Of a stretch of 64,000 nucleotides of DNA, positions 691-33,987 are shown piece after piece. The notes beneath the pieces are model-generated. The model ran no database searches. It was given only the letters and a program-made list of their open reading frames with translations, and was not told where the DNA came from. A program made the position numbers and the translations under genes. The DNA is from Allolobophora icterica. Its lineage: Eukaryota > Annelida > Clitellata > Crassiclitellata > Lumbricidae. Position 1 is the first letter of the stretch; the number at the start of each line of letters is the position of its first letter. Location: assembly GCA_963556255.1 (NCBI GenBank), contig OY744604.1:92847635-92911634 (forward strand). The letters run 5' to 3'.

Positions 691-973
691 GGCTCCAATG
701 ACGAAGGCGACAGGGCCAAACCCTGACCCTTGGATGATACTTGCCTTGATGGTTGCGATGGAAGATAAATTCATGGCATATCGCGTCTGATGTGTGCGGT
801 CACGTAAAAACTCAATCATCCAGTTAAAGATCTGATCTGGTAAGTCCAGTTGGGAGAGTTTGTGCGCCAATGTGGAATGACGTAGGGAATCAAAAGCTTT
901 GGAAAAGTCTAGAGATATCAAGGTAACATAGCTGTTGGTAATTAATAGTTGAGAGACATTATGACGTATGGCT
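690..973 (-). mobile_element. Second LINE family, RT fragment (part a)
   Basis: Minus-strand translation gives an RT palm segment with 'ISLDFSKAFDSLRHS' and, further on, 'ASIIQGSGFGP'. These match the motif A and motif B regions of invertebrate non-LTR RTs, but the sequence is clearly different from family 1. The copy is interrupted at 974-2053 by an RT-bearing insertion and resumes at 2054. The hexamer ATGGCT is present on both sides of the insertion (968-973 and near 2051-2056). Joining across it restores a continuous RT reading frame. Confidence 0.65.
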
Positions 974-16206: not shown

Positions 16207-16213
16207 TCACTAA
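16207..16213. repeat. Target-site duplication TCACTAA, left copy
   Basis: It is identical to 33981-33987 and immediately flanks the inverted repeats that begin GTAGATGTCC. Polintons usually make 6-bp duplications. Here the direct repeat is 7 bp (8 if the preceding C is counted), because terminal bases of the element coincide with target bases, so the exact cut cannot be fixed. Confidence 0.9.
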
Positions 16214-16546
16214 GTAGATGTCCATTACGGGCTTTGGCGCAGCACCTCACTATTCTATCAAATTTGCCAGGGGATGGTCGCCACCCCCACAATTTTTTGT
16301 CCCCACCACTCCATTATCTCACCGAATTAAGAGGATGTCGGTCTATACCACCTAGGTCTCCAGAGAGTCCCTAGATCCCACGGGCCTTGATAGCGGGTCG
16401 ATTTTTTTGGTGTACGAATTATGCCACCAAAAACCTGCAAGCCAAAGCCAAAAAATAAGGATCGTGGATTGCCTTAACACACCGAAATGTAAAGTCCCGT
16501 TTGCTGCCGGCCGAGACCCTCCCACGAGGCCGGCCCAAACCATTGG
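16214..16546 (+). repeat. Polinton left terminal inverted repeat
   Basis: 333 bp, matching the reverse complement of 33648-33980 with two substitutions and no indel as read by eye. The substitutions are GCTGCC versus GCTGAC near 16507 and GCCGGCCC versus GCCGCCCC near 16532. The outer end is GTAGATGTCC, or AGTAGATG if the shared A is included, compatible with the AG...CT convention of Polintons. Small ORFs inside the TIRs on both sides are mirror artefacts. Confidence 0.95.
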
Positions 16547-16640
16547 AGTGTGCCAGTAAAAATTATAGCCCACTAATCGTACGGCGGTGGTGCGCTAGGA
16601 ATAACGGACTCACTACTCCAACCACCAAGGATGAAAACTT

Positions 16641-17246
16641 TTATGTTGAGGTTCGCGGGCAAGACCCGGCGCTGGTTAGTTTCTTGATTAGTTCTGCCAC
16701 CATCTGGTCTTTGCTTTGACTCGGCAACTCTTTTTTTCCATTCTTGCTTTGTATATCACGTTTCATCGTTCTATATTTCTCCTCCTCTCCTAGAATAAGC
16801 TTGTATTCTTCATCGCTAATAGCTGTGTCTTCCAAAGCCCGAGAAATATGGTCATGAACTGTGTTTAGCTTACTTTCCGCCAAAATACAAATTTCGTCGT
16901 GTTTTGAAGCTTTAGCAACGAAACTTCTACTTACAACATTTCCAATAATATCCAGAAAACTCGTCGCTATGGCCAAACTCTCCAGAACAATACCAGGAAT
17001 AAAACCAATACCAGTGGCTAACATAGCTGCCCCACCCACCCCAGTTCCAAGACTAACTATAGCAAGGCCGGCCGAGGCCCCATTAGCCACATCTACAACC
17101 CTCTTATACTTTTTGCACAGTTGTCCCCGACTTATCGCCTCAGACCTCAGGAATGCTTCTATTTCACCGATCTTCTGCAAGCGAAATGTTTGCGACGTCG
17201 TGTCTGACGAAATTGTTGACTCCATCAGCGGTGGGTACAAAGACAT
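16641..17246 (-). CDS. Polinton conserved membrane protein, 201 aa
   Basis: The last gene of the minus-strand structural block, ending 95 bp inside the left TIR. A soluble N-terminus ends in 'LCKKYKRVV'. It is followed by a strongly hydrophobic Gly/Ala-rich segment (about residues 57-105: 'GTGVGGAAMLATGIGFIPGI' and 'LESLAIATSFLDIIGNVV') long enough for two membrane passes. The C-terminal half is charged and helical, with 'KHDEICILAESKLNTV' and 'ISDEEYKLILGE'. From memory, proteins of this layout recur in Polintons of aquatic invertebrates, but their function is unknown to me. A membrane-active or virion-associated role is inference. The start is preceded by CTATAAAAAAGT. Confidence 0.85.
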   Translation of the reverse strand: MSLYPPLMESTISSDTTSQTFRLQKIGEIEAFLRSEAISRGQLCKKYKRVVDVANGASAGLAIVSLGTGVGGAAMLATGIGFIPGIVLESLAIATSFLDIIGNVVSRSFVAKASKHDEICILAESKLNTVHDHISRALEDTAISDEEYKLILGEEEKYRTMKRDIQSKNGKKELPSQSKDQMVAELIKKLTSAGSCPRTST

Positions 17247-17252
17247 ACTTTT

Positions 17253-17798
17253 TTATAGTTGCTCTATCAGTAACGTTACGTTTAACTCAATAGTTGAAGT
17301 ACTTAAAACGCCTCTCTTTTTTCCTTCAATTCGAAAACTCGTTTGTCCTGGAATGAATATTGCCCTAGATGCATCAAATTGTCCACTTTGAATGTCAACT
17401 GTACGATCGATGCTACCCGCGGCTGTAATAATGCGAACTGACGCATCACCGGTACTAACACCAAACATTGTAAGCTTCCAGAACCCGCCCTCTAACGAAA
17501 CCCCCTGATTGGTGGTTTGCAAAGTTATACACGGAAAACGCGCAGCGGTCAATGGAAGAGTTTGCCACGCAGTCGTGGTTACCGTTCCGGCCGCCGTATA
17601 GATATCGCGGTTGTGGTAATCGTCAGACACGAAGTCGATGTGCTGTTGAGGCACCGCGGTCAATAGCTCTGCGGTGGGCTTCGGGACGTCGTACCCCCAG
17701 TGGCCCACATCACCTAGACTGTCTATGCTGTATTTGCACATGTCTATTTCTCCGTGTTGACGGAGATACCCCCGAATCTTGTAGTGCGCGTCAGTCAT
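17253..17798 (-). CDS. Polinton protein of unknown function, 181 aa (possible fiber partner)
   Basis: It sits 6 bp after the fiber stop codon and 6 bp before the next start, so it belongs to the same cluster. It has no signal peptide or transmembrane segment. The N-terminal part is polar ('YKIRGYLRQHGEIDMCKYS'). The C-terminal part alternates Thr/Ile/Val with glycine turns ('AGTVTTTAWQTLPL', 'FWKLTMFGVSTGDASVRI', 'STIELNVTLL'), which looks like a beta-sandwich. Position and composition suggest a virion surface or fiber-associated protein. This is inference only. CAGTAGTATAGAAAAAT precedes the ATG. Confidence 0.8.
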   Translation of the reverse strand: MTDAHYKIRGYLRQHGEIDMCKYSIDSLGDVGHWGYDVPKPTAELLTAVPQQHIDFVSDDYHNRDIYTAAGTVTTTAWQTLPLTAARFPCITLQTTNQGVSLEGGFWKLTMFGVSTGDASVRIITAAGSIDRTVDIQSGQFDASRAIFIPGQTSFRIEGKKRGVLSTSTIELNVTLLIEQL

Positions 17799-17804
17799 AT
17801 TTTT

Positions 17805-19976
17805 CTATACTACTGACTGTCCCTCGTGTTTAAAATATGTATAGATCTGGAAGTGGGTTATTCCAAAAGTAGGTTGTGGTGGGCTGGTGGCCAAGACCAT
17901 CAGCCTGAATTTTTTGTATAAACTCTGAGTTGTGAAGGTGAACTCTTGCGCAGAATTAGTCAAAGTGACATTGGAGGTGATGAGCGCATCAAAACTATTT
18001 TCATCATCGGGCGGAGTCCCATAAATCCTCCAGGACGTGACACGCGGAGCAGTAGAACTAATTCCCCCAGTCAGACTAACCTTCCATACTCGCACAGCCG
18101 TCGGGCATTCAATCTGTAACCAAGTCCCACTAACCTGAGCACCAATATCGGCTCTCGATCTGGACGCCGTCTTCCACTCACCCCTCACACCCGAGTTGAA
18201 TGCCATATGAGGCGGGTTAGTGGGTAAAGATTCGTTGGCTGAGGCAATAAAACCCGTTTCGGAAACGTTTCTGGATAGGGGCGGAATGTGGCCGCTGTAG
18301 TTGAGAATCTTGAGGCCCGCCGCGTATCGCCTTTCATTAGCTATCTCACTGTCCACATACCGCTTGTTAGTCAGGTACCATGGCCCCGAGGGCGGCGTAT
18401 AATTATTCGTAGTGGCGTTGGTGATCAGCTGCGTCACTTGTTTCAAACTCGCGGCGTCACTATCAGATCCTGGAATTTCTGTTGGGAGCCCAGTCACTCT
18501 TTTACCACCCATAGCCAGATCACCGGTCATGGTACTGCCGGATTTTAGCACGCAGGCGTTCCTAACGATAATATCTTGCTCGTTGGCATATCTCTTAGCG
18601 GCGTCAGCTTTCTGGTCCGCATAGAGTCTAACGGAAGCTCCAATTTCAGCGTTTTTCACGTCAACGTATCGTTTATTTGTCACATGCAACGGTTCTGTTG
18701 GTACTCTATCACTCTTTGTCATGTTGTCGGCGATCAGCTTCGATACTTGTGCCATACTCGTCGCGTCGCTTTCGGACGTTGCTGCGCCCGTAGGGAGCCC
18801 AGTAACTCTTTTACCGCCCATGGTTAAATCACCAGTCATTGCATCACCAGCTTTAAGCACGCACGCGCTCCTAACGATAACATCTTGCTCGTTGGCGTGC
18901 GTCTTAGCAGCTTCAGCTTTCTGGTCCGCATAGAGTCTAACTGAAGCTCCAATCTCAGCGTTTTTCGCGTCCACATACCGTTTGTTAGTCAAGTACTTTG
19001 GTCCAGCCGGCGCCGTATCATTATTCTTAGTGGCGTTGCTGATCAGCTGCGTCACCTGTTTCAAACTCGCGGCGTCGCTATCGGATCCTGGAATTTCTGT
19101 TGGGAGCCCAGTCACTCTTTTGCCACCCATGGTCAAATCACCAGTCATAGAATCGCCGCTTTTGAGCACATGCTCGCCTCTTACGATAGCATGCTTCTCG
19201 TCCACATATCTTCTAGCGGTGGTGACCTTCTCATCCACGTACTGTCTGTAAGAAGCGTCGCGGGAATCTACATACCGCTTATTCACCACATGCAACGACT
19301 CCGTGGGTACTCTATCGAGTTTTACTAGAGCGCCAGCGACCGCTGTTGACACTTGTTTCCAACTCGCTGCGTCGCTATCGGATCCTGAAATTTCTGTTGG
19401 GAGCCCAGTAACTCGGTGGCCACCCATAACTAAACTTCCAGTCATTACACCGCCGGATTTGAGCACGCACGCATTCCTGACGATAACATCTTGCTCGTTA
19501 ACATAACTTTTAACAATAAGGTCCTTATCATCTGCATACCGCCTAACGGAATCTCTCAGCCCCGCATTCTTCTCGTCCGTGTACTGCCTGGCATCGATAA
19601 GCTTTTGGTCTGCATGATTTTCGGCTGCGGTCGCCTTCTGGTCCGCGTATCTTACCACTTGTGCCCAGCTCGCTGCGTCGCTTTCAGACGCTTCTGCGTC
19701 TGTGGGCAGCCCAGTAACTTTGTGGCCACCCATTTTTAGAACACCAGACATCGTTCCACCGGTGATTTGTAAGTTGTCCTGATCTATGATGTCTGCATAA
19801 GCCTTTGTCGCGGCGTCTGTTTCCATCGTGGGCGTTCCCACGTTTGTCAGTCGAAAACCTCCAGCCGACAGAATTCCCATCATGGTATCACCAGCCTTGT
19901 GGACGAGCCCAGCGGCGCTTATCTGCCCCCCTCCCACCCCACCTCCACCGTCTCTTCCAAATTTGTCAACCGGCAT
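17805..19976 (-). CDS. Fiber-like protein with phage-type repeats, 723 aa
   Basis: A short Gly-rich head ('FGRDGGGGVGGGQIS') is followed by six repeats of the form G-x-x-M-T-G-x-L-x-M-G-G-x-x-V-T-G-L-P-T. They lie between about residues 30 and 520 and are each followed by 'SDSDAAS(W/L)KQV'-type sequence. Spacers are rich in 'YVD', 'YADQKA' and 'NEQDVIVR' heptad-like stretches suited to trimeric coiled coil. Such repeats are characteristic of bacteriophage tail fibers. The last about 160 residues form a different domain ('TWLQIECPTAVRVWKVSLTG', 'TSWRIYGTPPDDENSF', 'YKKFRLMVLA') resembling F5/8-type galactose-binding folds, so it probably binds a receptor or glycan. The inferred role is the attachment spike at the capsid vertex. 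The repeats are also strongly repetitive at DNA level. TATATAAAAA lies directly before the ATG. Confidence 0.88.
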   Translation of the reverse strand: MPVDKFGRDGGGGVGGGQISAAGLVHKAGDTMMGILSAGGFRLTNVGTPTMETDAATKAYADIIDQDNLQITGGTMSGVLKMGGHKVTGLPTDAEASESDAASWAQVVRYADQKATAAENHADQKLIDARQYTDEKNAGLRDSVRRYADDKDLIVKSYVNEQDVIVRNACVLKSGGVMTGSLVMGGHRVTGLPTEISGSDSDAASWKQVSTAVAGALVKLDRVPTESLHVVNKRYVDSRDASYRQYVDEKVTTARRYVDEKHAIVRGEHVLKSGDSMTGDLTMGGKRVTGLPTEIPGSDSDAASLKQVTQLISNATKNNDTAPAGPKYLTNKRYVDAKNAEIGASVRLYADQKAEAAKTHANEQDVIVRSACVLKAGDAMTGDLTMGGKRVTGLPTGAATSESDATSMAQVSKLIADNMTKSDRVPTEPLHVTNKRYVDVKNAEIGASVRLYADQKADAAKRYANEQDIIVRNACVLKSGSTMTGDLAMGGKRVTGLPTEIPGSDSDAASLKQVTQLITNATTNNYTPPSGPWYLTNKRYVDSEIANERRYAAGLKILNYSGHIPPLSRNVSETGFIASANESLPTNPPHMAFNSGVRGEWKTASRSRADIGAQVSGTWLQIECPTAVRVWKVSLTGGISSTAPRVTSWRIYGTPPDDENSFDALITSNVTLTNSAQEFTFTTQSLYKKFRLMVLATSPPQPTFGITHFQIYTYFKHEGQSVV

Positions 19977-20004
19977 TTTTTATATACAAAAAGGTGACGG
20001 AAGT

Positions 20005-20427
20005 CTAACATAGGTCAAGCACGATGTCTTCAAAATTCTTTCCGGCAGCGAGCTCTCTTAGCACGGTCAGGCAGAGATGGCCACATACCACATCATCGGG
20101 CCCCTGTAGCTGGAACGTTTGAGTTCTTATAGGATTTTTTAAATATCTAGAAATTTCGAGAGGCGGATCCAGCCCATAACTGTCAAAATAGACGGCTTTT
20201 GGTCCATCTATCCAATAGGCGACCCAGTGAGTACCATCACCAGAACCGGAATCTAAATTAACAACTCCACACTCCTTCTCACGAGCCACGGCGGGCAGAC
20301 CATCTCGCATGAAAACACCGCGGAAATGCGGCAGCGCCCTGGCAACTTTCTCTATATCGAAGTTGCTAAGAGGTTTTAGTTTTTTTGTCCGATGTAGAGA
20401 CCGGATCCTTTGCACATTGGACAACAA
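20005..20427 (-). CDS. Adenain-like cysteine protease (Polinton maturation protease), 140 aa
   Basis: A small ULP1/adenain-type protease. The N-terminal block 'LSNFDIEKVARALPHFRGVF' is a family hallmark. Catalytic candidates are His67 in 'GTHWVAYW', Asp82 in 'YFDSYG', oxyanion Gln108 in 'FQLQGPD' and nucleophile Cys115 in 'VVCGHLC'. In adenoviruses and Polintons this enzyme cleaves virion precursor proteins during maturation. Likely substrates here are the pVI-like and pX-like proteins. The start overlaps the 3' end of the upstream pX-like gene by 52 bp in another frame. The next Met (residue 40) would delete the conserved N-terminal block, so the early start is kept. All catalytic residues are present, so it is probably active. 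Confidence 0.93.
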   Translation of the reverse strand: MLSNVQRIRSLHRTKKLKPLSNFDIEKVARALPHFRGVFMRDGLPAVAREKECGVVNLDSGSGDGTHWVAYWIDGPKAVYFDSYGLDPPLEISRYLKNPIRTQTFQLQGPDDVVCGHLCLTVLRELAAGKNFEDIVLDLC

Positions 20428-20948
20428 CCACCACGAGTCTCACGCCCGAGATATAAACCAGTCCCGCGGACCTGGGCCTCGAGTTCGCGATTGTGACGCG
20501 CGGCCTCTGCTAAAGCCGCGTCGTCGATCCGTTTTTTCTCGGCTTGGGCCGCATCGCTGGCCTGTTTCTTGCGCAGAGCCTCTGCATCGCTGGCCTGTTT
20601 GCTCTGCACAGCCTTTACTACCCCAGCGGTCCCACCAGCCACGGCACCCGCCGCGGATAACCCACCAAAAAGCAGCGGGAGGAGAGCCAGTAGTGGAAGA
20701 AATCCGCCCGATTTTGTCATCTTTTTCAGTTGCGTTTTGGTGAATCTCAGCTCCATGCCAACGCCTTCCGAAATCTTCTTCACGATTCGGGCGGCTTGAA
20801 CTTTCGTAAGCGCGAGCTTATCGTCTCCACGAAGCTGGCCATGAGCGAGTCGGATCGTGGCACCAGTGCCGGCGCGCGCAGCTCTAGCTAATGTTTGCTT
20901 TTGCCCTTCGGTCAGTGAAAGGCCGAACGCAACGTATTCAGTTTTCAT
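20376..20948 (-). CDS. pX/pVI-like hydrophobic minor virion protein, 190 aa
   Basis: The N-terminal about 70 residues are soluble ('LTEGQKQTLARAARAGTGAT'). A basic motif 'LRFTKTQLKKMTKSGG' leads into a hydrophobic stretch 'FLPLLALLPLLFGGLSAAGA' (about residues 83-110). A long charged helix follows, with a duplicated 'KQASDA' element. The C-terminus has two G-x-G-L-Y-[LI]-G motifs ('GTGLYLG', 'GSGLYIG') separated by a Cys pair (CCPMC). The architecture resembles small adenovirus core/membrane-lytic proteins and recurs in Polintons. The precise function is unproven. Its end overlaps the protease gene. A role in membrane disruption or genome condensation, with processing by the neighbouring protease, is inference. 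Confidence 0.85.
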   Translation of the reverse strand: MKTEYVAFGLSLTEGQKQTLARAARAGTGATIRLAHGQLRGDDKLALTKVQAARIVKKISEGVGMELRFTKTQLKKMTKSGGFLPLLALLPLLFGGLSAAGAVAGGTAGVVKAVQSKQASDAEALRKKQASDAAQAEKKRIDDAALAEAARHNRELEAQVRGTGLYLGRETRGGCCPMCKGSGLYIGQKN

Positions 20949-21005
20949 TTTTGGAAAAAATATATCTAAAAGAGGGCCTTGTATCTAAATGTGAAAAACC
21001 GATTT

Positions 21006-22301
21006 CTAGTAGACGACGTTGAATTTGCTGCCATCCGATTCAAAATTCAGGAGTCGGTCGCTGATCAGGACGGCATATGCTGTCGTATTATTTGGTACCC
21101 CTTCGTTAAAGTCCACCTTGATTTGTATGTCCTGTACAGAGGTTTTAAGTCGTTCAGATTGCCGCCGCACGTCCAGAACGAAGATCGGAAACAAATCTAC
21201 AAATTCGATTGGTGTCGGTTGGCATGACGATTCACGCGCGTCTATGCCGCAATATTCTTCCTTGAAGTCACGTAGGGCCTTGTAAGCGCGAGAGGTTGTC
21301 CTCTTGGTGAAGTCGAGATTCATGTCAACAACCGGGTAGCGATCGCTGTTGAGCATAGCGAAAATGTTGCGAACCTGCACATGGTCAAACAGTGCCGGAT
21401 TCTGGCCTTGATGTGCATTCTTTCCAGTTTGAAAAGCAACAAGAATCCAGCGTGGCTTTTCCGTGCCCGACTTAACACTCAAACGCCAGGAAAAAGTCGT
21501 CGCTCGTGGCACCGCAATGTTGTCGCATTGCATGGCGCGGAATGCTACAGGTACCTTAACCTTGGCTTCAATCTGCTTCATAAGCATGCTTTTATACTCC
21601 AGAGCGGGTATTATATGCGGCATGAACCAGGAGAGTTTAGTCAGCGCGATCTGGCCATTGGCCGCTGCGGCTTCCTTGAAGATCGCGTCTGCGTCCCCCT
21701 GCCGGCTCAGCAGTAAGGAGTGTTTAATCCCGTATACGACTTTGTGGTAATCATCGCAAAAGCCGAATAGATGTCTTAAGGGAACGATGAATGAAAACGT
21801 TCCAATAGGGACGGGTTTTCCAATGATCATCAGTCGACGGGCCTCGAAGCCGATATTCGCAGCCGCCGCCGCCGCGGTCGTGTCCTTCTGCCAACACATG
21901 TTTAAACCTTCGCCTTTGGAAAAATCATCGCCGTATACCAGCATGCCTTTCATCGTCGTGGCTTGCCCAGGTGACATGACATTCTCTATCTCGGTATTGT
22001 TAGCCAGGTATCGAATTTGAGAAAACATGTACGGGATAGCATTGTTGATGAATGACACCAACGAGTCTGCGATGTAACCCGCGCCAGTTGATGTAATCCT
22101 GCCCTCCACAAGAAGGTAACTCTTGGAAGGTTGCGTGAAAATGTCTTGATTCTGGATGTCTATCTGTATGGCCTGGCCGTTGTTAATAGCCGCAGGGTTT
22201 TGTGACTCATACTCGCGATATTCAAACGATTCGATGCTATTATCATCGGGCACCGCCGAAGCGATGTCCAACATTTCACTCGGCACGTCAAATGCCGCCA
22301 T
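21006..22301 (-). CDS. Major capsid protein, double jelly-roll, 431 aa
   Basis: Family-typical features include an acidic N-terminus with 'SIESFEYREYESQNPAAI', 'SYLLVEGRI' and 'FINNAIPYMFSQIRYLANN' in the first jelly roll. 'GTFSFIVPLRHLFGFCDDY' follows, and the C-terminal 'FVDLFPIFVLDVRRQSERLK' is diagnostic of Polinton MCPs. MCPs of this lineage form pseudo-hexameric trimers that tile an icosahedral capsid. The length fits intact relatives, and no stop or frameshift is seen. It lies between the pVI-like and pX-like genes. GCTATAATA precedes the ATG. Confidence 0.94.
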   Translation of the reverse strand: MAAFDVPSEMLDIASAVPDDNSIESFEYREYESQNPAAINNGQAIQIDIQNQDIFTQPSKSYLLVEGRITSTGAGYIADSLVSFINNAIPYMFSQIRYLANNTEIENVMSPGQATTMKGMLVYGDDFSKGEGLNMCWQKDTTAAAAAANIGFEARRLMIIGKPVPIGTFSFIVPLRHLFGFCDDYHKVVYGIKHSLLLSRQGDADAIFKEAAAANGQIALTKLSWFMPHIIPALEYKSMLMKQIEAKVKVPVAFRAMQCDNIAVPRATTFSWRLSVKSGTEKPRWILVAFQTGKNAHQGQNPALFDHVQVRNIFAMLNSDRYPVVDMNLDFTKRTTSRAYKALRDFKEEYCGIDARESSCQPTPIEFVDLFPIFVLDVRRQSERLKTSVQDIQIKVDFNEGVPNNTTAYAVLISDRLLNFESDGSKFNVVY

Positions 22302-22416
22302 TATTATAGCTAAAAAAGTTCAAGCTTCAATTATTAATCATGTTACAAATTAATTTCATATGTGGTGGGTTAAACATTTTTTAAATTGCGTTTTGTGAAT
22401 TAGTCGGAATTTTCTT

Positions 22417-22875
22417 TCATTTTGCAAGAAACAGACCCCTACCACAACGACTCGGCTTTATAGTTTTGAAACCGGATCCAGCAATGCGGCTGTTTATGTC
22501 GGCCATTGTCGGAACAACGGGTGGCGGACTCACAGCCAGCTGTTTTAAGTATTCAATGCTCTTGTCGCTGAGCGCCTTCTCCAAAGGTGCGGGAACAACA
22601 GGCGCGGCAGATGAATTTTCATTTCGTAAATGAGCTTCATTTACGGCCGCAGCGCGTCTCGCTTTCACGGCATCAACAATTTGCCTGACGGCAGATGCTG
22701 TTGTGGCGCCGGCTTTCGCGACATTACCAACCGCCTTGGCAACGTTTGTGATTGTGCCTCTATTCGCCGAAATGAAGGAGCCTGCACGGCCAAGGAAACC
22801 CGCGATTTTGGGTATCCAGTCGAAAAGTCCGCCACCCACGACACGACGCCGCTTTTTAATTCCAAGAACAAACAT
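22417..22875 (-). CDS. Adenovirus pVI-like minor capsid protein, about 152 aa
   Basis: Basic 'KKRRRVVGGG' is followed at once by an amphipathic/hydrophobic segment 'LFDWIPKIAGFLGRAGSFIS'. A long Ala-rich helix comes next ('TNVAKAVGNVAKAGATTASA'), then a Pro-rich linker and the terminal 'SRCGRGLFLAK'. VVGG-G fits the adenain-type consensus hydrophobic-x-G-G with cleavage after GG, which would free the amphipathic helix. pVI-like proteins lyse the endosomal membrane and link hexons to the core. The Met at 22875 is preferred. An alternative Met at 22905 adds ten residues and overlaps the penton gene by 8 bp. The tail motif G-x-G-L-F-L echoes that of the pX-like protein. Confidence 0.85.
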   Translation of the reverse strand: MFVLGIKKRRRVVGGGLFDWIPKIAGFLGRAGSFISANRGTITNVAKAVGNVAKAGATTASAVRQIVDAVKARRAAAVNEAHLRNENSSAAPVVPAPLEKALSDKSIEYLKQLAVSPPPVVPTMADINSRIAGSGFKTIKPSRCGRGLFLAK

Positions 22876-22897
22876 GAGAATATTTAAGTGTGAACAT

Positions 22898-23689
22898 TTA
22901 CGCACTGCGGATGTGAAACCTTATAGTTACTGTCTCACCGCGGAGGTTTAATTGTTCACCATTCTGGTCGGTCAGCCACACACGAATGCCCTGTACGTTA
23001 CCAGCCAGTGCAACTGGTAGGTACACCAGATTTTTCGGAGACTCGATTACCTTGTAGCCGGGCGACACATCCGGGAAAAAACTATAGATTACTGGCAGCT
23101 GGCTACCATTTCGATACGATCCAGAGATAATGTCACAATTTACCAGGATTGTGTCCACGCGGAGAATATCGACTGGATTTTCTCCCTCTTTATAACCACT
23201 ACCAAGCCTCTGAGGGTTAAAACCGAGCATTTGCCTGATGGTAGATTGAGCCATATTTACCTTATATAGGGCATTCGTAATTTTTATGAAGGCGCGTAGG
23301 GTAGATGCGTTAGCTCCTATGGTAATAGGAGAATTAAAGCCGAGTGGTGCCACACCCGTCGGAGAATTTTGCTTTTCTAACTGCCTACCGATTTCATCAT
23401 TAATCTGTGCGATCTCGTAGCTTCCGTCGGGCAAAATGATCGTCTTCCACGTCACACCATTGTCGGTGCTGTAGACGAACTTGTTATTTGTACTATCGAT
23501 GTTGGGAATCGAATTATAAGTTTCAAGATTGACCAAAGCAAGCTCAAAGCGTCTTTTTGGATCCAGGTACAGCGGTGGTGAGAAAGCCGTGGTCCACCCT
23601 GTAGTATCTGAGGAAACAACTATACTAAAATTTTCCTTAGGCTGTAAAAGTTCTCTAATTTCTTCGAGCAGTTTCTCCGAGCGTTCCAT
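22898..23689 (-). CDS. Minor capsid (penton-like, single jelly-roll) protein, 263 aa
   Basis: Diagnostic blocks of Polinton penton proteins are present: 'FELALVNLETYNSIPNI', 'VTWKTIILPDGSYEIAQIND', 'QMLGFNPQ', 'DIISGSYRNGSQLPVIYSFF', 'NLVYLPVALAGNVQGIRVWL', and the terminal 'TDQNGEQLNLRGETVTI'. The length is normal and the frame is open. Pentameric single jelly-roll proteins occupy the capsid vertices and would anchor the fiber encoded downstream. The 10-bp gap to the upstream gene shows tight packing. Confidence 0.92.
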   Translation of the reverse strand: MERSEKLLEEIRELLQPKENFSIVVSSDTTGWTTAFSPPLYLDPKRRFELALVNLETYNSIPNIDSTNNKFVYSTDNGVTWKTIILPDGSYEIAQINDEIGRQLEKQNSPTGVAPLGFNSPITIGANASTLRAFIKITNALYKVNMAQSTIRQMLGFNPQRLGSGYKEGENPVDILRVDTILVNCDIISGSYRNGSQLPVIYSFFPDVSPGYKVIESPKNLVYLPVALAGNVQGIRVWLTDQNGEQLNLRGETVTIRFHIRSA

Positions 23690-23699
23690 CTTGTGTGCT

Positions 23700-24812
23700 T
23701 TATTTTATGAGCATGTTTCTATTCAATTCGAGTGCCAGCTCTTTGGAGATCGCACCGGAACGCAGTAACTCATCAAGAATGGCGGAGATTTCGTTGCCGA
23801 GACCTGTGTTTCCCGCGGCCCTAGAGGCCACCAAAAGCTGCAACCTCTCTACCAGGGCGTTTGGATCGTTGTAAAATTGCACCGCGCCGCCTCGAATCAG
23901 CTGGAACTTTTTACTTTTCCGGCCATGAATAGGCAGACCAGACATCTGAACGAGCTTTTTGAAAGTTTCAATTGCCTGAGGCGAATATTGCTTAGTCTTA
24001 ACGAAGCGTTTCGTTAACAGGCTGAACAATGACTCATCGGCAGGAGCTTCGAGCACCAGGTTCCCACCTTTAAACACTCTTAGTCTACCAGCAGACAGCG
24101 CGACGGGGTCGACGGAGAGCTCACCCAAGGCGCTACCTTGTAATTTAAGAGGAACGGCTGGGACACTGAAACCCTTTCCCTTTTTGATGAGGCTGTGGCC
24201 CGCTAGCAGTGTATGGATTCGCTTTTTATATTCCCTTAGGGCTTCAATATCTGCAGTCACCTCATCTACCTTTTCTTCGTCTTTTTCCTTTTTAGCATTC
24301 TTTTTCTCTTTGCCCAGGGTGTGGCGATTATAGTGATTTACCTCACCGATTATCTTTTCAGCACCTGCAATGTCGGCTAGATCGAGCTCGCTCGGAGGTT
24401 TGAAACCGTGTCGTGTGATTGCCGCGACGTTGAGATATTTGTTTGGATCTACTAACAATGCGTGGGGGATTCGGGATGTTGGAAGCGCTGGAAGGGCTGG
24501 AGCAGCCGTTGGAGCTGCTGTTCCTGCGGTTTCACCGAACAAAGCTGCTATCGGGTTAAAATTAGCAGACTCTGAAATCTGCGCCGGCAAATCCTGTAAA
24601 GCGCTGGTAACTTTATGCAGCTCCTTAGACGTAGCCACCTGGGATTCAGCCGTGGCTGTGGCTATTGGTTTGAAAAGCTTTGCCGCATCGTACTGAAGGT
24701 TGGCTTCACCGAGCTTCTCATCCACGAAACGTTGTCTCAATCGATTTCTCCGAGCTAAATAATCCTGAGTTAACGCGTCTCGCTCCTGTTTAGACGAAAC
24801 TTTTGTCCACAT
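23700..24812 (-). CDS. Polinton conserved protein of unknown function, 370 aa
   Basis: The N-terminal 75 residues are helical and charged ('ARRNRLRQRFVDEKLGEANL'). An Ala/Pro-rich linker (about 85-115) follows, then 'PHALLVDPNKYLNVAAITR' and a Lys/Glu-rich coil (about 165-185). The conserved C-terminal half contains 'ALGELSVDPVALSAGRLRVF', 'SLFSLLTKRFVKTKQYSPQ' and 'VQFYNDPNALVERLQLL'. Proteins with this C-terminal half recur next to penton and ATPase genes in invertebrate Polintons. I recognise the family pattern but know no function. A capsid assembly or minor virion role is inferred from its place in the structural cluster. Confidence 0.85.
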   Translation of the reverse strand: MWTKVSSKQERDALTQDYLARRNRLRQRFVDEKLGEANLQYDAAKLFKPIATATAESQVATSKELHKVTSALQDLPAQISESANFNPIAALFGETAGTAAPTAAPALPALPTSRIPHALLVDPNKYLNVAAITRHGFKPPSELDLADIAGAEKIIGEVNHYNRHTLGKEKKNAKKEKDEEKVDEVTADIEALREYKKRIHTLLAGHSLIKKGKGFSVPAVPLKLQGSALGELSVDPVALSAGRLRVFKGGNLVLEAPADESLFSLLTKRFVKTKQYSPQAIETFKKLVQMSGLPIHGRKSKKFQLIRGGAVQFYNDPNALVERLQLLVASRAAGNTGLGNEISAILDELLRSGAISKELALELNRNMLIK

Positions 24813-24903
24813 CGTGGTTGTATGTCGACTATATCTTGACGGTAACGATTACCTTTGTCCACATCGCGTTGTATGTCGGCTATATGTTGTCTATATCATG
24901 TCT

Positions 24904-25590
24904 TTAAATACTTGCCTTGGGCTTATAGAAGCGATCGAACCCGCAACGATATTTTCCGTCGTACACTTTGGACGTCAAATCTATGACTGCGAATCCATAT
25001 GGCTGAGCAGCACACTCGCTGAAGAACGTACGGAACTCATCGAAAGACATGTCGCCGCCCACGAACGTATCGTGAATGGCTCGCAAATTTTTACTGTCTT
25101 GGTTGAAGAGGACGATAAGATTAGCATTGTCACGGATCGCTTGCTTCGGAATTCGAAAATAATTCTGCGTTAAGTAGAAGCAGTCCGCGCCACCGTGTCG
25201 ACCCATAGTGAAATACCTTTCGATGGGCGACTGTTTTTCAAGCATGACGTCATCGAACACTAGAAGGCTTCTGGCATTCTTATTTAATGATTCAACTGGA
25301 ACTATTTCATCTGAGCAAGAGTGAAAGGAAGCCACTTCCTTCCCGGCAACTTTTTCCAACTCTGTAACCCAGTCCCGAAGAAACTGATATTTTTCCTGTC
25401 CCAGAGACTTTGAGTAGAGGTATAGCCGATCAAAACGCAGGTACCCCTTCTTCAACAGAAGGTTAAGCAGTAGGTTTGTTTTCCCACATCCGCTAGGCCC
25501 ACAGATTATGCACCGTATGCTGGATGGTAACAGCCAATGGTGGTGTTTTTTTCCATCGTCGGCTTCGAGATCGAAATTTGTTATTTCCAT
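24904..25590 (-). CDS. Genome-packaging ATPase (A32/FtsK-HerA-like), 228 aa
   Basis: The Walker A motif GPSGCGKT is at residues 31-38 and Walker B 'LLVFDDV' at about 109-115. A sensor-like 'YLTQNYF' lies at about 139-145. 'FEHF'-type arginine-finger regions are not obvious. The enzyme powers translocation of genomic DNA into the capsid. The open frame extends upstream to 25737, but that part overlaps the divergent zinc-ribbon/PLA2 gene. The family starts with 'MEITNFDLE', so the Met at 25590 is chosen, giving the usual length. The divergent neighbour starts only 20-40 bp away, implying a shared bidirectional promoter. Confidence 0.92.
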   Translation of the reverse strand: MEITNFDLEADDGKKHHHWLLPSSIRCIICGPSGCGKTNLLLNLLLKKGYLRFDRLYLYSKSLGQEKYQFLRDWVTELEKVAGKEVASFHSCSDEIVPVESLNKNARSLLVFDDVMLEKQSPIERYFTMGRHGGADCFYLTQNYFRIPKQAIRDNANLIVLFNQDSKNLRAIHDTFVGGDMSFDEFRTFFSECAAQPYGFAVIDLTSKVYDGKYRCGFDRFYKPKASI

Positions 25591-25628
25591 ATAGAGACAA
25601 CGAGTTATGATTGTATTCAACGAAAACA

Positions 25629-26189
25629 ATGTATTGCCTACGATGTAAGAAACATACTGAGACTTCAAATGAAACAATTGTCGAGTTACGAAACGGTCGG
25701 CCAGCCAAGAAGGGAACGTGTGCCGTCTGCGGTGCAAAGAAGAGCCAAATTTTGCCTTCTAAAGTGCGAAAGACTGGAGGCTCGCTACTGAATAGCGCTC
25801 TTAATGTTCTGCCTCTGCCAGAAATGCATATGAGCCTTCCATCCGGTATGTCTTCGGAAGATAATCCGGGAGGTTCTTTTCAGAATACAGGAAAGTACTC
25901 CTACTGTGGACCATTCACAAAACTCGATAAACGGCTGTCACAGCGATATCACGGTGTTAATCAGCTCGACCGTGCGTGCCTCCACCACGATGTAGCTTAC
26001 GCAGTTCATAAAGATACCCCGGGGCGTAATCACGCAGATGACATCCTCGCCGCAGCCGCGTCGAAGATCGCACTCACCGATGAAACTCCGGATTATGAGA
26101 AGAAAGATGCCCGGCTCGTATCGGCCATTATGACAGCGAAGTCGAGGCTGGGGATGGGTGTCAGAACGAGCCAGCGAAAACGCAAATGA
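25629..26189 (+). CDS. Zinc-ribbon plus phospholipase A2-like protein, 186 aa
   Basis: The N-terminus 'MYCLRCKKHTET' with 'KKGTCAVCGAKKSQ' is a CxxC...CxxC zinc ribbon of the DUF5679 type. The C-terminal half has a calcium-loop-like 'YCGPFTKLDKRL' (about residues 88-99) and the catalytic pair in 'LDRACLHHDVAYAVH' (His-Asp, about 117-121). It closes with basic 'RTSQRKRK'. This matches the parvovirus VP1u-like PLA2 fold reported in Polintons/adintoviruses, where it would breach endosomal membranes on entry. The Met at 25629 is chosen because the ribbon starts there. 25611 adds six residues. The stop overlaps an upstream ATG of the integrase frame (ATGA). Confidence 0.88.
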   Translation: MYCLRCKKHTETSNETIVELRNGRPAKKGTCAVCGAKKSQILPSKVRKTGGSLLNSALNVLPLPEMHMSLPSGMSSEDNPGGSFQNTGKYSYCGPFTKLDKRLSQRYHGVNQLDRACLHHDVAYAVHKDTPGRNHADDILAAAASKIALTDETPDYEKKDARLVSAIMTAKSRLGMGVRTSQRKRK

Positions 26190-26239
26190 AAATCATTTGT
26201 GTATGTGTTTACCTGTTTGTAATATATAGTTTTACTGAA

Positions 26240-27253
26240 ATGTCTAAGCACCTTTCAGCCGTCTATTACAGCCCTAAAGGTTACTGGCGAGGCAAGGCTG
26301 CGGTGAAGAAACTAGCCTCAGCCGCCAAAGTTTCCGAGGCGGAGGCACGTGATTGGTTGAAGAAACAAGCGGTGTGGCAGATTTATTTACCCGTTCCACG
26401 CCGCATACCGCGTCCAAAGTTCGAGGAAAATCGCCCAAACGCCGTACACCAAGCCGATCTCTTGTTTTTACCTCACGATAAAGTAGGTCGAAAGACTTAT
26501 AAATACGCTCTCACTGTTGTTGATGTTGCTTCACGATACAAAGAAGCTGAACCGTTGATCAACAAAAGTGCGACCGAAGTCGCCGCCGCTTTAAGCCGGA
26601 TCTATAAGAGGGGCCCATTAACTTGGCCTCGACTCTTTCAGGTCGATCCTGGACGCGAATTTATGGGTGATTTTACACCGTTGCTGGCGAAGCACGACGT
26701 TCTTGTAAGACGCGGACAGGCCGGAAATCATCGCCAACAGGGCATCGTTGAACGCTTTAACCGTACTCTAGCTGAGCGACTCTTCGGTGCTCAATACGCT
26801 CAGGAATTGCTCCTGGATGCAAGGGGGTCATCAGAACGGTCAGTGGAATGGGTTCGACGATTGCCCGAAGTTGTAGCTACACTAAACGATGAGCCGACGC
26901 GCTTGCTCGACATGAAGCCGGTTGAAGCGATGAAAGCTGCTAAAGTGACACAGAAGCCCTCTCATTCACAAATGAAAACTCGTTTGTGGGGAATGGATGA
27001 GCCTATTCTCGGACACGACGTTCTCGTCCGCTATTTGTACGCTCCCGGCGAGCTCGAAGGTGGAAGCAAACGTGCCACCGATCCTAACTGGTCGCTCACC
27101 ATCCACGCTATTTTGGATGTTGTTCGGCAGGCTGGTAAACCGGCTTTATACCATCTAGTTGATGGGCCTGGCCGCGGGTTTGTACGTGAGGAGCTGCTTC
27201 TGGTGCCTATGGGCACTGAGCTACCCCCCGATAGAATACTCAACCGTCGTTGA
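26240..27253 (+). CDS. Polinton integrase (retroviral-type rve), 337 aa
   Basis: An N-terminal helical region begins 'MSKHLSAVYYSPKGYWRG', then a DDE core. The acidic residues are Asp73 in 'HQADLLFL', Asp136 in 'QVDPGREF' and Glu171 in 'GIVERFN' (34 residues between the last two). The C-terminal part ends with an SH3/chromo-like segment ('LYHLVDGPGRGFVREELLLV'). The enzyme inserts the linear element DNA, giving the short target duplication and TIR-bounded structure seen here. The frame is open to 26186, but the Met at 26240 gives the family-typical start. The 3' end overlaps the convergent polymerase gene by 14 bp. All catalytic residues are intact. Confidence 0.93.
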   Translation: MSKHLSAVYYSPKGYWRGKAAVKKLASAAKVSEAEARDWLKKQAVWQIYLPVPRRIPRPKFEENRPNAVHQADLLFLPHDKVGRKTYKYALTVVDVASRYKEAEPLINKSATEVAAALSRIYKRGPLTWPRLFQVDPGREFMGDFTPLLAKHDVLVRRGQAGNHRQQGIVERFNRTLAERLFGAQYAQELLLDARGSSERSVEWVRRLPEVVATLNDEPTRLLDMKPVEAMKAAKVTQKPSHSQMKTRLWGMDEPILGHDVLVRYLYAPGELEGGSKRATDPNWSLTIHAILDVVRQAGKPALYHLVDGPGRGFVREELLLVPMGTELPPDRILNRR

Positions 27254-30200: not shown

Positions 30201-30980
30201 GGCCCACTCGAAGCATCGGTTATCTTTATTCTTTACATTAATAACCGTACGAGGGGGTATATACTTTGGTGTGGGAAAGTAGCTCTTACCTCGGAAAGGC
30301 TTATATCTTGCAAGACTGAGGTCTAGCGCCACGACCCGTCTCACCCTCCACCCCGATCCCTCATTGGTATACTCCTCGAGGAGTTTTAGTACTTCGGCCT
30401 TGGCCTTCCGAACAGTCCCTTGGATTTTACCCGCATTGGTAATTGGTTCTGCTTTGCTTCGAAAGTAGGCCGTGTTGGTAATAGTACCCGGGGTCGCGTT
30501 TCCATCGTACAACATGTCGACGGTCGGTGCCAACTTTTCCAACTCAACTGTCAACACTTGAGAGTATTTCAGACCGTCTTGTTTCAACAGCTCTTCGTTG
30601 AGTTGCGACTCAATGTTGTGCTCCATTGCACTCAAGAAAGCCAACGCATCTCTTTCCAGCCTGTGGTTAAGAGGTACTTCTGCACGGAAGTCTCTAAGAT
30701 GCTGATTGGCGAGCTCTTTGTGTACTAGAAAGGGTGGTGGTCCATCTCTATCCTTCTTAATTAGGAGTGGGTCAAATTCTGCTAGAAGGGCCTTGCGTTT
30801 GGCCCCTCTATGCTTACGCACTGGAGGAATTGGCCTTGGAAGCAGTGGCTGTAGTAAGCGCCTTTTGACTGCATGTGGTATGGGTTCGTCCAAAATATTT
30901 TGTAGAACAGCCCGAAGAGCTGGGGGACCAGTAAACTCACTCAGCAATTGTTCAATTTTTTCATTCGTAGACAATGCCAT
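27240..30980 (-). CDS. polB: Family B DNA polymerase (protein-primed type) with embedded HNH region, 1246 aa
   Basis: A replicative polymerase of the Polinton type. A poorly conserved N-terminal region includes 'RCFEWAILSAMYPV' near residue 257. A Cys/His finger 'CRRCLHIFCRQDLLDAH' lies near 372-388. The exonuclease motifs are 'YADFEA' (about 428), 'HNLRGYDSHL' (about 572) and 'RTDVLLLADVFE' (about 735). The polymerase motifs are A 'DANNLYG' (about 828), B 'LANNAVFGKTMEN' (about 990) and C 'YTDTDS' (about 1088). Between ExoI and ExoII sits 'CHICGEALEEDRVRDHCH' with 'AHNACNL', an endonuclease VII/HNH-like zinc site. The frame is completely open. An AT-rich TATAAAATAA lies 11-20 bp before the start. 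It is convergent with the integrase, overlapping by 14 bp. Confidence 0.95.
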   Translation of the reverse strand: MALSTNEKIEQLLSEFTGPPALRAVLQNILDEPIPHAVKRRLLQPLLPRPIPPVRKHRGAKRKALLAEFDPLLIKKDRDGPPPFLVHKELANQHLRDFRAEVPLNHRLERDALAFLSAMEHNIESQLNEELLKQDGLKYSQVLTVELEKLAPTVDMLYDGNATPGTITNTAYFRSKAEPITNAGKIQGTVRKAKAEVLKLLEEYTNEGSGWRVRRVVALDLSLARYKPFRGKSYFPTPKYIPPRTVINVKNKDNRCFEWAILSAMYPVEKDPQRPTKYRGHLLELNFDGIEFPVKVTDIGKFERQNPNISVSVFGWDKALYPIYVSKQTNRDYNIDLLLLVSGENYHYVWIKDLGRILNQNSKDKSKKHPCRRCLHIFCRQDLLDAHIKDCQGISKKPQRIEMPKDDENILKFQNHHKQMRAPYIVYADFEALNVPIEGAAMNPSESNTRQIAEQKPCSFCYIVVRCDGRTKKPVLYRGENAVPEFLERLQGELASIKQRLATPAKMIMSAADRQSFCEAAECHICGEALEEDRVRDHCHITGKYRGAAHNACNLKLRIYPDKCKVPVVFHNLRGYDSHLIMQAIGSCEAAQDEETDINCIPNNMEKYMTFNIGQLQFIDSLQFLNSSLDKLSGNLSLEDLKVTAAYIKESFVHNDRTKLDLLRRKGVYCYEHIDDYHRFEEDRLPPKEAFYSRLSRENISDADYEHAQRVWNEFDCKTLGDYHDLYLRTDVLLLADVFETFRDTSMKHYSLDPANYFSLPGMAWDALLKKTKIELELLTDIDMHLFVEKGLRGGISMVSKRFAKANNPQCPDYDTTKPDNWIMYLDANNLYGWAMQQSLPVGGFSWESPTLDEVLETPDDAPEGFLLEVDLGYPEHLHESHSDYPLAPETLTVQEEWLSDYQNVLMNELGGKFTKHVKLVPSLRPKERYVVHYRNLKLYHSLGLRVSKIHRAIKFRQEAWMAPYIEMNTKLRAKATSEFEKDFFKLANNAVFGKTMENLRKRIRVNLVPTSKVDKLRKLIADPAYISHKIFNDQLAAIHSLKSKLKLNRPVYVGQAVLDLSKHLMYDFWYNDVKNEYGEKAQLLYTDTDSLLFQVETPNAYADMWNKKYLYDLSEFPRDSPYYDVENKKVVGKFKDECNGVAIAQFVGLRPKMYSILKSGGSEIRKAKGVQRAVVKKDLHHELYKECLFEREEMRHTQVVIRSHDHQIGVYEQNKISLSPLDTKKWISPDGITTLAYGHYKINDG

Positions 30981-31020
30981 AGTTATAAATTATTTTATAC
31001 TACTGTGGCAAACTTTTCTC

Positions 31021-31175
31021 TAATACAATAATTATATCATTTGTTCAAAATGAAATTTTGTTTACTGATATTCGATTGACGCTTGCTCATCTGTATTACC
31101 TCAATACAATAACTATATCATTTGTTCAAATGATAATTTTTTTATTCTACTGATATATTTGATAGTCGCTTCCAT
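31021..31175. repeat. Approximately 70-bp duplication upstream of the polymerase gene
   Basis: 'AATACAATAATTATATCATT' (from 31023) and 'AATACAATAACTATATCATT' (from 31104) begin two similar blocks. Each continues with TTGTTCAAA...TTTACTGATAT/TCTACTGATAT and ends in a GCTT phrase. The second block includes the 3' end of the zinc-finger ORF at 31142. Confidence 0.8.
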
Positions 31176-31417
31176 TCTTTATTAAATTCGCGGACTAACC
31201 CGCCTCGTCGAGCTCTGAAATATTTAGCGAAATAACCACATTTCATACACTCACCCACGTGTGTTTTTATGCCCCTTCCACATTTGGCACATGGTTTTGT
31301 CCCACAACCGTTTCGCAGTCGTGCCAAATGTTTGAAACAGTACTCCCCAATGCACCTGCGACAGCAGAGGGATGTTTTACCTATACCGAGCCAAATGCAA
31401 AAGTTTTGTCCCAACAT
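31142..31417 (-). CDS. Small zinc-finger protein, 91 aa
   Basis: A compact Cys-rich protein with 'CCRRCIGEYCFKHLARL', 'CGTKPCAKCGRGIKTHVGEC' and 'CMKCGYFAKYF', at least three CxxC-type pairs. The tail is basic ('RARRGGLVREFNKEWKR'). It is the rightmost gene of the Polinton and lies upstream of the polymerase on the same strand, so it could be an early DNA- or RNA-binding regulator. That is inference, and I do not recognise the family. The 3' end lies in a duplicated block shared with the polymerase leader. Confidence 0.7.
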   Translation of the reverse strand: MLGQNFCIWLGIGKTSLCCRRCIGEYCFKHLARLRNGCGTKPCAKCGRGIKTHVGECMKCGYFAKYFRARRGGLVREFNKEWKRLSNISVE

Positions 31418-33647
31418 TATGTTTTATGTATACCACAACCTATTCATTTATTTAAATTGAAAAAATTCTGAACCATCCACGCCATATTCTTGCATATACA
31501 ATACTGTGTCCACACCTCAGACATAAGGCTGTTGGATATTTAAAAGTACTAACCAAAAAAGCACACTCGATACTAGGCAATCGTCACTGAAAGTTTAACA
31601 TTTTCCCTCTGGCTAATAAAAAAATTTCACACAACGCCAATTTGCGTTTTCTACACTTTATCGGGCAAAATAATGCTTTTAACCTGATGAATATTTGACC
31701 AATGTTTTTCTTAAAAATCTTACTGAACCTAATGCGATTTATTTTAAACCATATTTTTTAGCAAACGGCACCTTATACAGTAAGATTCGTTTGAAATTGT
31801 TCACGTCGCAAATCTAACCGCTGTGTGGTATCCTAAACTTAACATATATACTCTGCTTGTTTACAAGACAGATGTCGGATATAAAACATAGCGCTGTAGG
31901 CTTCATAATATTCTTCTATCAAATGTATTATAATTTTACGATCGGTTGTGCCTAATTAATTGCCTACATCCCAACACATGTCCACGGGTATTATTAAAAA
32001 CTAGTTTTTAAAAACAGTCTTATCCCGAGAGACTGCGCTTTCGATATACCTATTCTTAGACATGCTGGGTTTTTCGCCTATTAATAGGTGTCTTCCTTCG
32101 CATGTGTTGTCCGTCTATTTGTGTGTATGTCAATCTGCGTGTGTCTGTGCGTTTAGGTTCAACGCTTAAGTGCAAAAATAAGAGTTTACGTTGTCCTAAA
32201 ACTGGCGCTGAACAATCGGAATTATTTCCGAAACGCTATGAAAAGCGAATTCTCTAAGTCCGCAAACGCTATGAAAAGCGTTTCAGAATTCTCTAAGTCC
32301 GCACACAGTAGTGACTTTGGGTGAAAAATTTACATGGCGCAGATTTATGTTTTCTGGACGTTTTGAGCCGAAATAATCATTTTGGCCCAATGAAGTTTTG
32401 GTGAAATTTTTCTTGGGTGTTTGTCAATTTTTGGGGTGATTGGGGTGAAAAATTTTACACGTCGCAAATTTGCGTTTTCTACACGTTTTGAGCCAAAATA
32501 ATCATTTTGACCTGATGAAATTTTGACATAATTTTGGGGGGTTTTTTGACTTAGTGATTGGGGTGGAAAAATTTACACGTCGCAAATTTGCGTTTTCTAC
32601 ACGTTTTGGGTTGAAATAATCATTTTGACCTGATGAATTTTTTGAAAATTTTTTCAGAATATTATCTAAATTATGTCTAACTTACCAAAGAACTCATCTT
32701 TTTCACCCACACACAACACCCCGCATTCAACTCAATGCCAGCCAGCTGGTTTGTACAGACTAGGCTTCTATTCAATGGCTGCCAGACGCGGCCCATCGTA
32801 GCCTCTCGCGTTCTATTCTTAGATGGCTGCCGTTTATTCATTATTCATTTCAGCCTCGTTTGTACGTCTCCATATGTCTGTTATATTCGTGTTTGCAAGT
32901 CTATTCCTATGTCTTTCCGTATGCGTACGCGGTTGTCTGCTTGTATGTGTAATCATATGTGCTTGTGTATGCCTACACGGTTACGTGTTTGTATCTGTGT
33001 GTGCAGCACGCAGAAATTTACTCAGCTCTCAGGTCTAGCGTCTTGTTTCAAGGACGTTTACTGGTCTAACTAGGTCATCCTGGCTGGATTTGTATGCGTA
33101 CGCATTACTCTGTTCGTGTTGCTGTTCCTATGGGTATGAGTTTGCCTGTGCCTATGCTTGTACGTATGTCTGCGCGACTGCGTTATTGTGTGTTAAAGAG
33201 GCGACCCCATGACCTGATGTTATTATAAAGGGCTAAGTAAAATTCCATGCGCGCTGGCTTGCAGTTTCGTTTTCGTGGTGAAGTATCTCATATTAATTAA
33301 AGCGCTTGGATGCCTATTGGCGTATTGAGTAAGATTACGGTTTTGTTGTTAAGTCTACTAAGTAACGAATATAAGCTTTCAAAGCATAACACAGTTATAT
33401 CACAGATATTTGGTTATATGGTGCAGGTGAAATTGTTTTAGTTCACAGGCCACAATGGCAATCGACATCTAAATTTACACACCGCGCAATGAATCCTGGT
33501 AAAAGTGGGCGCGTTTTCTCTGTAACAACGGGTTTTGTAGAATATAGTATATTCTGTAAACAGAAGAGTTTCGCGATATTTTATTTTAGTTGACTTGAAA
33601 GCAGCTCAGCTGGCGTCTTTGAAAACGTAATATTTTACTATTAGACC
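31418..33647. promoter_or_regulatory. Non-coding right arm of the Polinton
   Basis: About 2.2 kb without a credible gene, in an element otherwise packed to within a few bases between genes. It contains the tandem repeats at 32321-32660, a diverged copy at 31615-31700 and a short duplication of AACGCTATGAAAAGCG at about 32234 and 32267. The low-complexity ORFs at 32735-33073 have no motif. A replication or transcription control role is inference. Confidence 0.5.
32321..32660. repeat. Approximately 120-bp tandem repeat, three copies
   Basis: Copies start at 32321, 32445 and 32563. Each opens with GTGAAAAATTTACA or a close variant. It continues with CGTCGCAAATTTGCG (less conserved in the first copy), TTTTCT(A/G)(C/G)ACGTTTTG and AAATAATCATTTTG. 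A fourth, diverged copy with 'CCAATTTGCGTTTTCTACAC' lies at about 31615-31700. Confidence 0.88.
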
Positions 33648-33980
33648 CCAATGGTTTGGGGCGGCCTCGTGGGAGGGTCTCGGCCGTCAGCAAACGGGAC
33701 TTTACATTTCGGTGTGTTAAGGCAATCCACGATCCTTATTTTTTGGCTTTGGCTTGCAGGTTTTTGGTGGCATAATTCGTACACCAAAAAAATCGACCCG
33801 CTATCAAGGCCCGTGGGATCTAGGGACTCTCTGGAGACCTAGGTGGTATAGACCGACATCCTCTTAATTCGGTGAGATAATGGAGTGGTGGGGACAAAAA
33901 ATTGTGGGGGTGGCGACCATCCCCTGGCAAATTTGATAGAATAGTGAGGTGCTGCGCCAAAGCCCGTAATGGACATCTAC
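33648..33980 (-). repeat. Polinton right terminal inverted repeat
   Basis: Inverted copy of 16214-16546 with two differences. The outer end is GGACATCTAC followed by the TCACTAA duplication. Confidence 0.95.
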
Positions 33981-33987
33981 TCACTAA
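33981..33987. repeat. Target-site duplication TCACTAA, right copy
   Basis: Identical to 16207-16213 and immediately outside the right TIR. Confidence 0.9.

Follow-up and report, generated by a model that had tools for sequence, protein, structure and literature searches.

A 64,000-nucleotide stretch of Allolobophora icterica DNA (the window; C3:92847635-92911634 of a 1.118-Gb assembly of 328 contigs, which was searched as a whole) carries a 17,769-bp element at positions 16213-33981 that we take, with a probability of roughly 0.78, to be the provirus of an adintovirus-like integrating virus of the Polinton class that amplified recently, forms a recombining population and probably makes its protease through a frameshift at the end of the pX core protein gene. 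The frameshifted protease, a 5-bp integration stagger and the swarm-like structure of the copies are the new points. A family B DNA polymerase (PolB), an rve integrase, an Ulp1/adenain protease, a packaging ATPase, a double jelly-roll (DJR) major capsid protein (MCP) and terminal inverted repeats (TIRs), features that define the Polinton/Maverick class, are all present, and the minor capsid protein (penton) has a candidate. An initial annotation, made from the letters alone, had proposed such an element, and it is real: TIRs and a 5-bp duplication enclose open PolB, integrase, ATPase, capsid, phospholipase A2 (PLA2), pX, pVI-like and fibre genes.

The TIR arms are 349 bp long and 98% alike, with 7 mismatches over the whole 349 bp and 2 within the first 333 bp, just as had been noted for the 333-bp repeats. 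The ends had been set at 16214 and 33980, one base inside the true tips at 16213 and 33981, and the exact flanking direct repeat reported with them exists, although the target-site duplication is the 5-bp CACTA and not the 7-bp TCACTAA that results from setting the ends one base further inside. Target duplications of 6 or 7 bp were rejected by comparing copies. The insertion-site sample comprised 21 copies (the window copy and the 20 best other MCP copies), of which 14 had both ends readable and 7 lacked a readable pair. All 14 readable copies have 5-bp duplications: a script found an exact one in 12 of the 13 copies it anchored; L038, the remaining one, whose flank was too short for the script, has AGAGT, and L025, the fourteenth readable copy, has GATCA, both read by eye. 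All 14 tips start with AGTAG, yet seven TIR types occur among them. One copy, on C14, was inserted in a host repeat that the window contains in uninterrupted form; CCTTC is single there (49406-49410) and doubled around the C14 copy, which provides a paralogous empty site. Empty sites were among the things that the initial annotation had proposed looking for.

A search for other copies, also proposed there, returned hundreds of related places. A 43-bp TIR tip had 74 exact matches genome-wide and its control had none, so the element is not a product of chance. These matches form 35 facing pairs with identical tips, plus 4 single tips, at spacings of 11.6-22.4 kb (median 17,867 bp; 28 of the 35 at 17.0-18.8 kb). 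Four pairs of 11.6-13.3 kb with exact tips are perhaps internally deleted copies, and one TIR-bounded 18.4-kb copy (C11:20812793-20831213) carries two complete, oppositely oriented PolB genes and looks like a fusion of two right arms. The pX/protease junction, at up to 3 mismatches, was found in 826 places (control 0), counted whether or not the copy around them is whole. Both of these counts are free of best-match bias. The MCP and PolB lists, on the other hand, hold the best 97 of 1,982 and the best 37 of 2,856 candidates, respectively. MCP is full length, without stops and 99-100% identical in all 97 scored places, and PolB is full length at 96-100% in all 37, 35 of them without stops; shared old inactivating changes were not seen in these best-match lists. 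Of the 35 TIR pairs, 10 enclose an MCP from the list of 97, 15 enclose a scored PolB and 16 enclose neither, and the MCP, PolB and TIR lists together give 139 separate loci. A capture-recapture guess of ~320 full-size copies, from loci common to the MCP and TIR lists, was superseded as too low beside the 826 junction places; the two lists are not independent random samples. That the element stems from misassembly or from a contaminating virus sequenced along with the host is hardly credible, since the 97 MCP places are spread over 15 contigs, the flanks vary from copy to copy and carry duplications, and one copy has a paralogous empty site.

Genes were compared among 20-21 copies, the 20 outside the window being the top of the MCP list. 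Synonymous differences per site (pS) were 0.15-0.27 for pX, the protease, the 181-aa and 201-aa genes and the fibre and reached 0.34 in the zinc-ribbon gene, while the ratio of nonsynonymous to synonymous differences (pN/pS) was 0.12 for the 201-aa gene, 0.14 for the protease, 0.23 for pX, 0.24 for the zinc ribbon and 0.26 for the 181-aa gene. The examined genes remain open throughout the 20 other copies, with one exception: in L041 the 181-aa gene is shortened to a 146-aa frame that begins at a later Met. The low pN/pS indicates that the copies diverged while functioning, because silent ageing in the chromosome would give a value near 1. The fibre behaves differently along its length: pN/pS is 0.14-0.26 in the shaft and 0.75 in the head, where pairwise identity falls to 0.27-0.47 in windows.

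These data bear on whether the element is simply a Polinton transposon that copies itself and spreads in the germ line, its capsid genes serving inside the cell or preserved because the copies are young, with no infection from cell to cell. All copies seen are chromosomal and in one assembly, the element is known here from genome sequence alone, and the IMG/VR scans gave no relative, all as expected of such a transposon. It is nonetheless quite improbable: the virion-type genes have stayed open at pS 0.15-0.34 with pN/pS 0.12-0.26, diversification confined to the fibre head is what is expected of a receptor-binding protein, and JGI metagenome contigs, which may themselves be host DNA, encode MCP relatives of 79-81% identity.

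Neighbouring genes have nearly uncorrelated histories. Between-copy distances at pX, the protease, the fibre N-terminus, the fibre head and the 201-aa gene are correlated at r of only -0.07 to 0.24, a 240-bp map of the copies shows identical stretches beside stretches of 50-70% identity, and identical head DNA is found in copies carrying different TIRs. Host gene conversion among resident copies, as opposed to recombination of co-replicating genomes, could also produce such mosaics; hundreds of similar copies per genome are good conversion partners, and the sharing of head DNA across TIR types fits conversion too. We consider this somewhat unlikely, as the copies are open, under selection and provided with separate 5-bp duplications, and as one TIR pair encloses two inverted PolB copies; inverted double-arm forms are known from linear protein-primed replication.

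Several points weigh against the provirus reading as a whole. The intact fraction of copies is not derivable from the MCP and PolB lists because both consist of best matches, and 2 of the 37 scored PolBs carry a stop. The MCP differences (124 synonymous, 0 nonsynonymous, in 5 copies) are biased by the choice of copies from the MCP list. In the fibre head, a match to F5/8 type C (discoidin) was obtained in 4 of 8 fibres tested, always below threshold, and a discoidin-like head was not found in the PDB by sequence. The integrase gave no chromodomain match in Pfam at E<=1 and its PDB matches span residues 106-216 only, though a sequence search may miss a chromodomain. Finally, two IMG/VR scans yielded no confirmed relative.

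Early Pfam results gave the impression of an element without a protease, which was overturned when a protease frame was found behind pX in the -1 frame. The initial annotation listed an open protease with its catalytic residues; the protease exists and H55, D70, Q96 and C103 are invariant among 50 sequences, but it is no ordinary open reading frame (ORF), lacking an ATG and lying at -1 to pX. A profile of the 50 sequences matched adenain in the PDB at 2.7e-6 and S273R of African swine fever virus at 7e-6. The structure model (pLDDT 92) had as its best PDB fold the adenovirus protease (E 4.7e-7) and as its best BFVD fold the adenain of the Terrapene box turtle adintovirus (E 9.2e-10). By profile, predicted model and fold, the protease is thus adenain-like.

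The open frame of the protease (20005-20439, minus strand) overlaps the end of pX, which reads CAA AAA AAC TAA; a -1 slip at A_AAA_AAC would read on as KK-LKPLSNFDIE. In 21 of 21 copies the protease frame has no ATG before its conserved N-terminus, and in 15 of 21 it is closed by a stop ten codons upstream of the slip. The residues preceding the first Met are under selection (pN 0.022 versus pS 0.214, 21 copies). All 21 copies have the junction CAAAAAAACTAAAACC unchanged and keep its frame, while pX varies from 161 to 191 aa. When the heptamer was left free and exact flanks were required, 704 genome places were found, and seven A are kept in 98 of the 100 listed. Relatives carry a similar signature: among 120 pX relatives listed of 153 found, 20 stop exactly at Lys-Asn, none of them ranking outside the closest 46, and a further 5 are one residue longer, and among 120 protease relatives listed of 137 found, 16 have KK-x just before the protease core. 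The pX of one relative (P0184) continues in frame into PLSNFDII. Since the relatives are mixed in this signature, the frameshift seems to belong to part of the lineage. With no start codon, a slippery A_AAA_AAC at the pX stop and the signature in relatives, a gag-pro-like -1 frameshift is the likely route to the protease. A pX-adenain frameshift is not described in the portions of PMC11071296 and PMC12567637 available to us.

Some evidence counts against slippage. Heptamer invariance in 21 copies is weak evidence by itself because pX Lys codons seldom vary (11 of 12 are invariant anyway), 28 of the 120 listed protease relatives lack KK and have a possible start close to the conserved N-terminus, and 13 begin at the core Met. 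The RNA that follows the slippery site is no more stably folded than shuffled sequences (z -0.58, -1.21, -0.84). The protease might instead be translated without a -1 slip, from a non-AUG or internal start, after polymerase slippage on the seven A, or through splicing; the seven-A run could make polymerases stutter, and the apparent starts in relatives and the failure to find strong RNA structure are compatible with this. Such routes appear unlikely, however, because a start at the core Met would lose the conserved and selected N-terminus, the CTG of PLSN is present in some copies only, with CTT in others, and pX of relatives ends exactly at Lys-Asn.

For an integrating virus with a frameshifted protease, a mechanism can be proposed. 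Linear TIR-bearing DNA would be copied by the protein-primed polymerase, and the rve integrase would join it to the host genome with a 5-bp stagger. Once transcribed, the virion genes may give rise to particles built from the DJR capsid, pX, the pVI-like protein, the penton candidate and the fibre, packaged by the A32-like ATPase. Protease would be made only as a pX-protease fusion, by ribosomes that slip into the -1 frame at A_AAA_AAC just ahead of the pX stop, and this would couple protease dose to the core protein and carry the protease into the particle, as in retroviral gag-pro. The variable fibre head would bind a receptor during entry, and the hundreds of related copies would stem from a population that recombined during replication and then inserted. 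The earlier suggestion of a recently active integrating virus is supported by the copies, the open genes and the paralogous empty site; activity at present we infer from the sequence. A further-reaching picture, which we hold only tentatively and at somewhat less than even odds, is of a living, freely recombining integrating animal DNA virus whose copies are fresh insertions from a circulating population, with TIRs, core genes and receptor heads exchanged like alleles of a gene pool, the fibre head driven to diversify, and the protease dose set by a frameshift like that of retroviruses, evolved independently in a lineage of DNA viruses.

Table 1. Features of the element, its target-site duplication and the host repeat of the C14 copy, in window positions
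Feature	Position	Strand	Remarks
Target-site duplication CACTA, 5 bp	left 16208..16212, right 33982..33986		set by comparing copies
Left TIR	16213..16561	+	349-bp arm, tip AGTAG
201-aa protein	16641..17246	-	hydrophobic glycine-rich stretch; no Pfam match above cut-off; open in 21/21 copies
181-aa protein	17253..17798	-	no Pfam match; found by start in 20/21 copies
Fibre, 723 aa	17805..19976	-	shaft of 4-5 repeats, each ~103 aa
Fibre head	17889..18239	-	sub-threshold F5/8 type C (discoidin) match; hypervariable among copies
Adenain-like cysteine protease (predicted)	20005..20379	-	-1 frame behind pX, first codon after slip to stop; no in-frame ATG before conserved N-terminus
pX-like core protein, 190 aa	20376..20948	-	sub-threshold Pfam match in window, E 0.006
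Putative slippery heptamer A_AAA_AAC, pX frame	20379..20385	-	directly before pX stop TAA (20376-20378)
MCP, double jelly-roll	21006..22301	-	Pfam E 9.2e-55
pVI-like protein	22417..22905	-	position and look only; no Pfam match
Penton candidate	22898..23689	-	sub-threshold DUF5901 only, E 5e-4
370-aa protein, no assigned function	23700..24812	-	open reading frame
A32-like packaging ATPase	24904..25737	-	Pfam E 3.2e-8; first ATG at 25590
DUF5679 zinc ribbon and PLA2 domain	25611..26189	+	Pfam
rve integrase	26186..27253	+	PF00665 E 2.3e-10
PolB, 1246 aa	27240..30980	-	PF03175 E 1.3e-21, viral/organellar type
91-aa zinc-ribbon-like protein	31142..31417	-	open in 21/21 copies; absent from the initial annotation
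118-bp tandem repeats	32309..32647		right ORF-poor arm
Right TIR	33633..33981	-	inverted arm, tip CTACT at 33981
Host repeat	49366..49613		uninterrupted form of C14 insertion site

PLA2 and the integrase are encoded on the plus strand and all other listed genes on the minus strand. In a Pfam search of the element proteins, the hallmark and accessory calls made earlier for the DJR MCP, rve integrase, PolB, PLA2 and A32-like ATPase passed the cut-off, whereas penton and pX stayed below it and the pVI-like protein is called by position and look. PF05829 is precomputed for 7 of the 120 listed pX relatives. PolB has Cys/His motifs that resemble vOTU by eye against the description in the available part of PMC11071308, and a sub-threshold endonuclease-VII match. 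MCP gave no useful match in the PDB by sequence, none of its 828 relatives carries the name of an adintovirus, and a look at phage records led no further. Repeats akin to the 118-bp units of the right arm occur in other copies at ~73-83% identity. Elsewhere in the window, an open 1634-aa polyprotein of a long terminal repeat retroelement (56605-61509, plus strand) has its integrase before the reverse transcriptase, which we take to be a Gmr1/GIN-like order, and a 363-aa ORF at 968-2059 (plus strand) encodes a reverse transcriptase like that of long interspersed nuclear elements.

Whether Polintons/Mavericks form particles is an open question, particles being unobserved according to the accessible text of PMC8097293. 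A genome with hundreds of related, largely open, recombining copies makes that question directly testable. If correct, a gag-pro-like frameshift into adenain would be a solution to protease dosing common to DNA and RNA viruses, and the variable fibre head would naturally document pressure from receptors or immunity.

In retroviral gag-pro, ribosomes enter the protease frame by slipping -1 at an A_AAA_AAC close to where the core protein gene ends. The putative pX-protease junction has the same slip motif in the same position, but it belongs to a DNA virus with an unrelated protease and core protein, and its frameshift is predicted. Adintoviruses (Starrett 2021), as defined in PMC11071296, share with the element, as far as the available sections go, a DJR hexon, an rve integrase, pX, a pVI-like protein, PLA2 and perhaps a PolB with OTU-like motifs, seen here by eye, and the element adenain is closest in BFVD fold to that of the box turtle adintovirus. 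They differ in that the integrase here has no chromodomain match and the protease lies behind a putative pX frameshift, where those sections mention possible Penton and Hexon-Adenain frameshifts and not pX; the element is a candidate adintovirus in the strict sense. Polintons with vUlp1 as protease and vOTU in PolB, as set out in the accessible part of PMC11071308, are alike in their Adenain/Ulp1 protease, protein-primed polymerase type, integrase, ATPase and MCP, and unlike the element in that its protease has no start of its own. The 134 intact vertebrate Mavericks described in the available text of PMC8097293 resemble the element in gene set, size (12.7-24.6 kb), TIRs and strong purifying selection. 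While those Mavericks have 6-bp duplications and at most 38 intact copies per genome, the family described here has 5-bp duplications in 14 of 14 readable copies, far more copies, though these are related places scored for openness in some genes, and AGTAG tips shared by seven TIR types.

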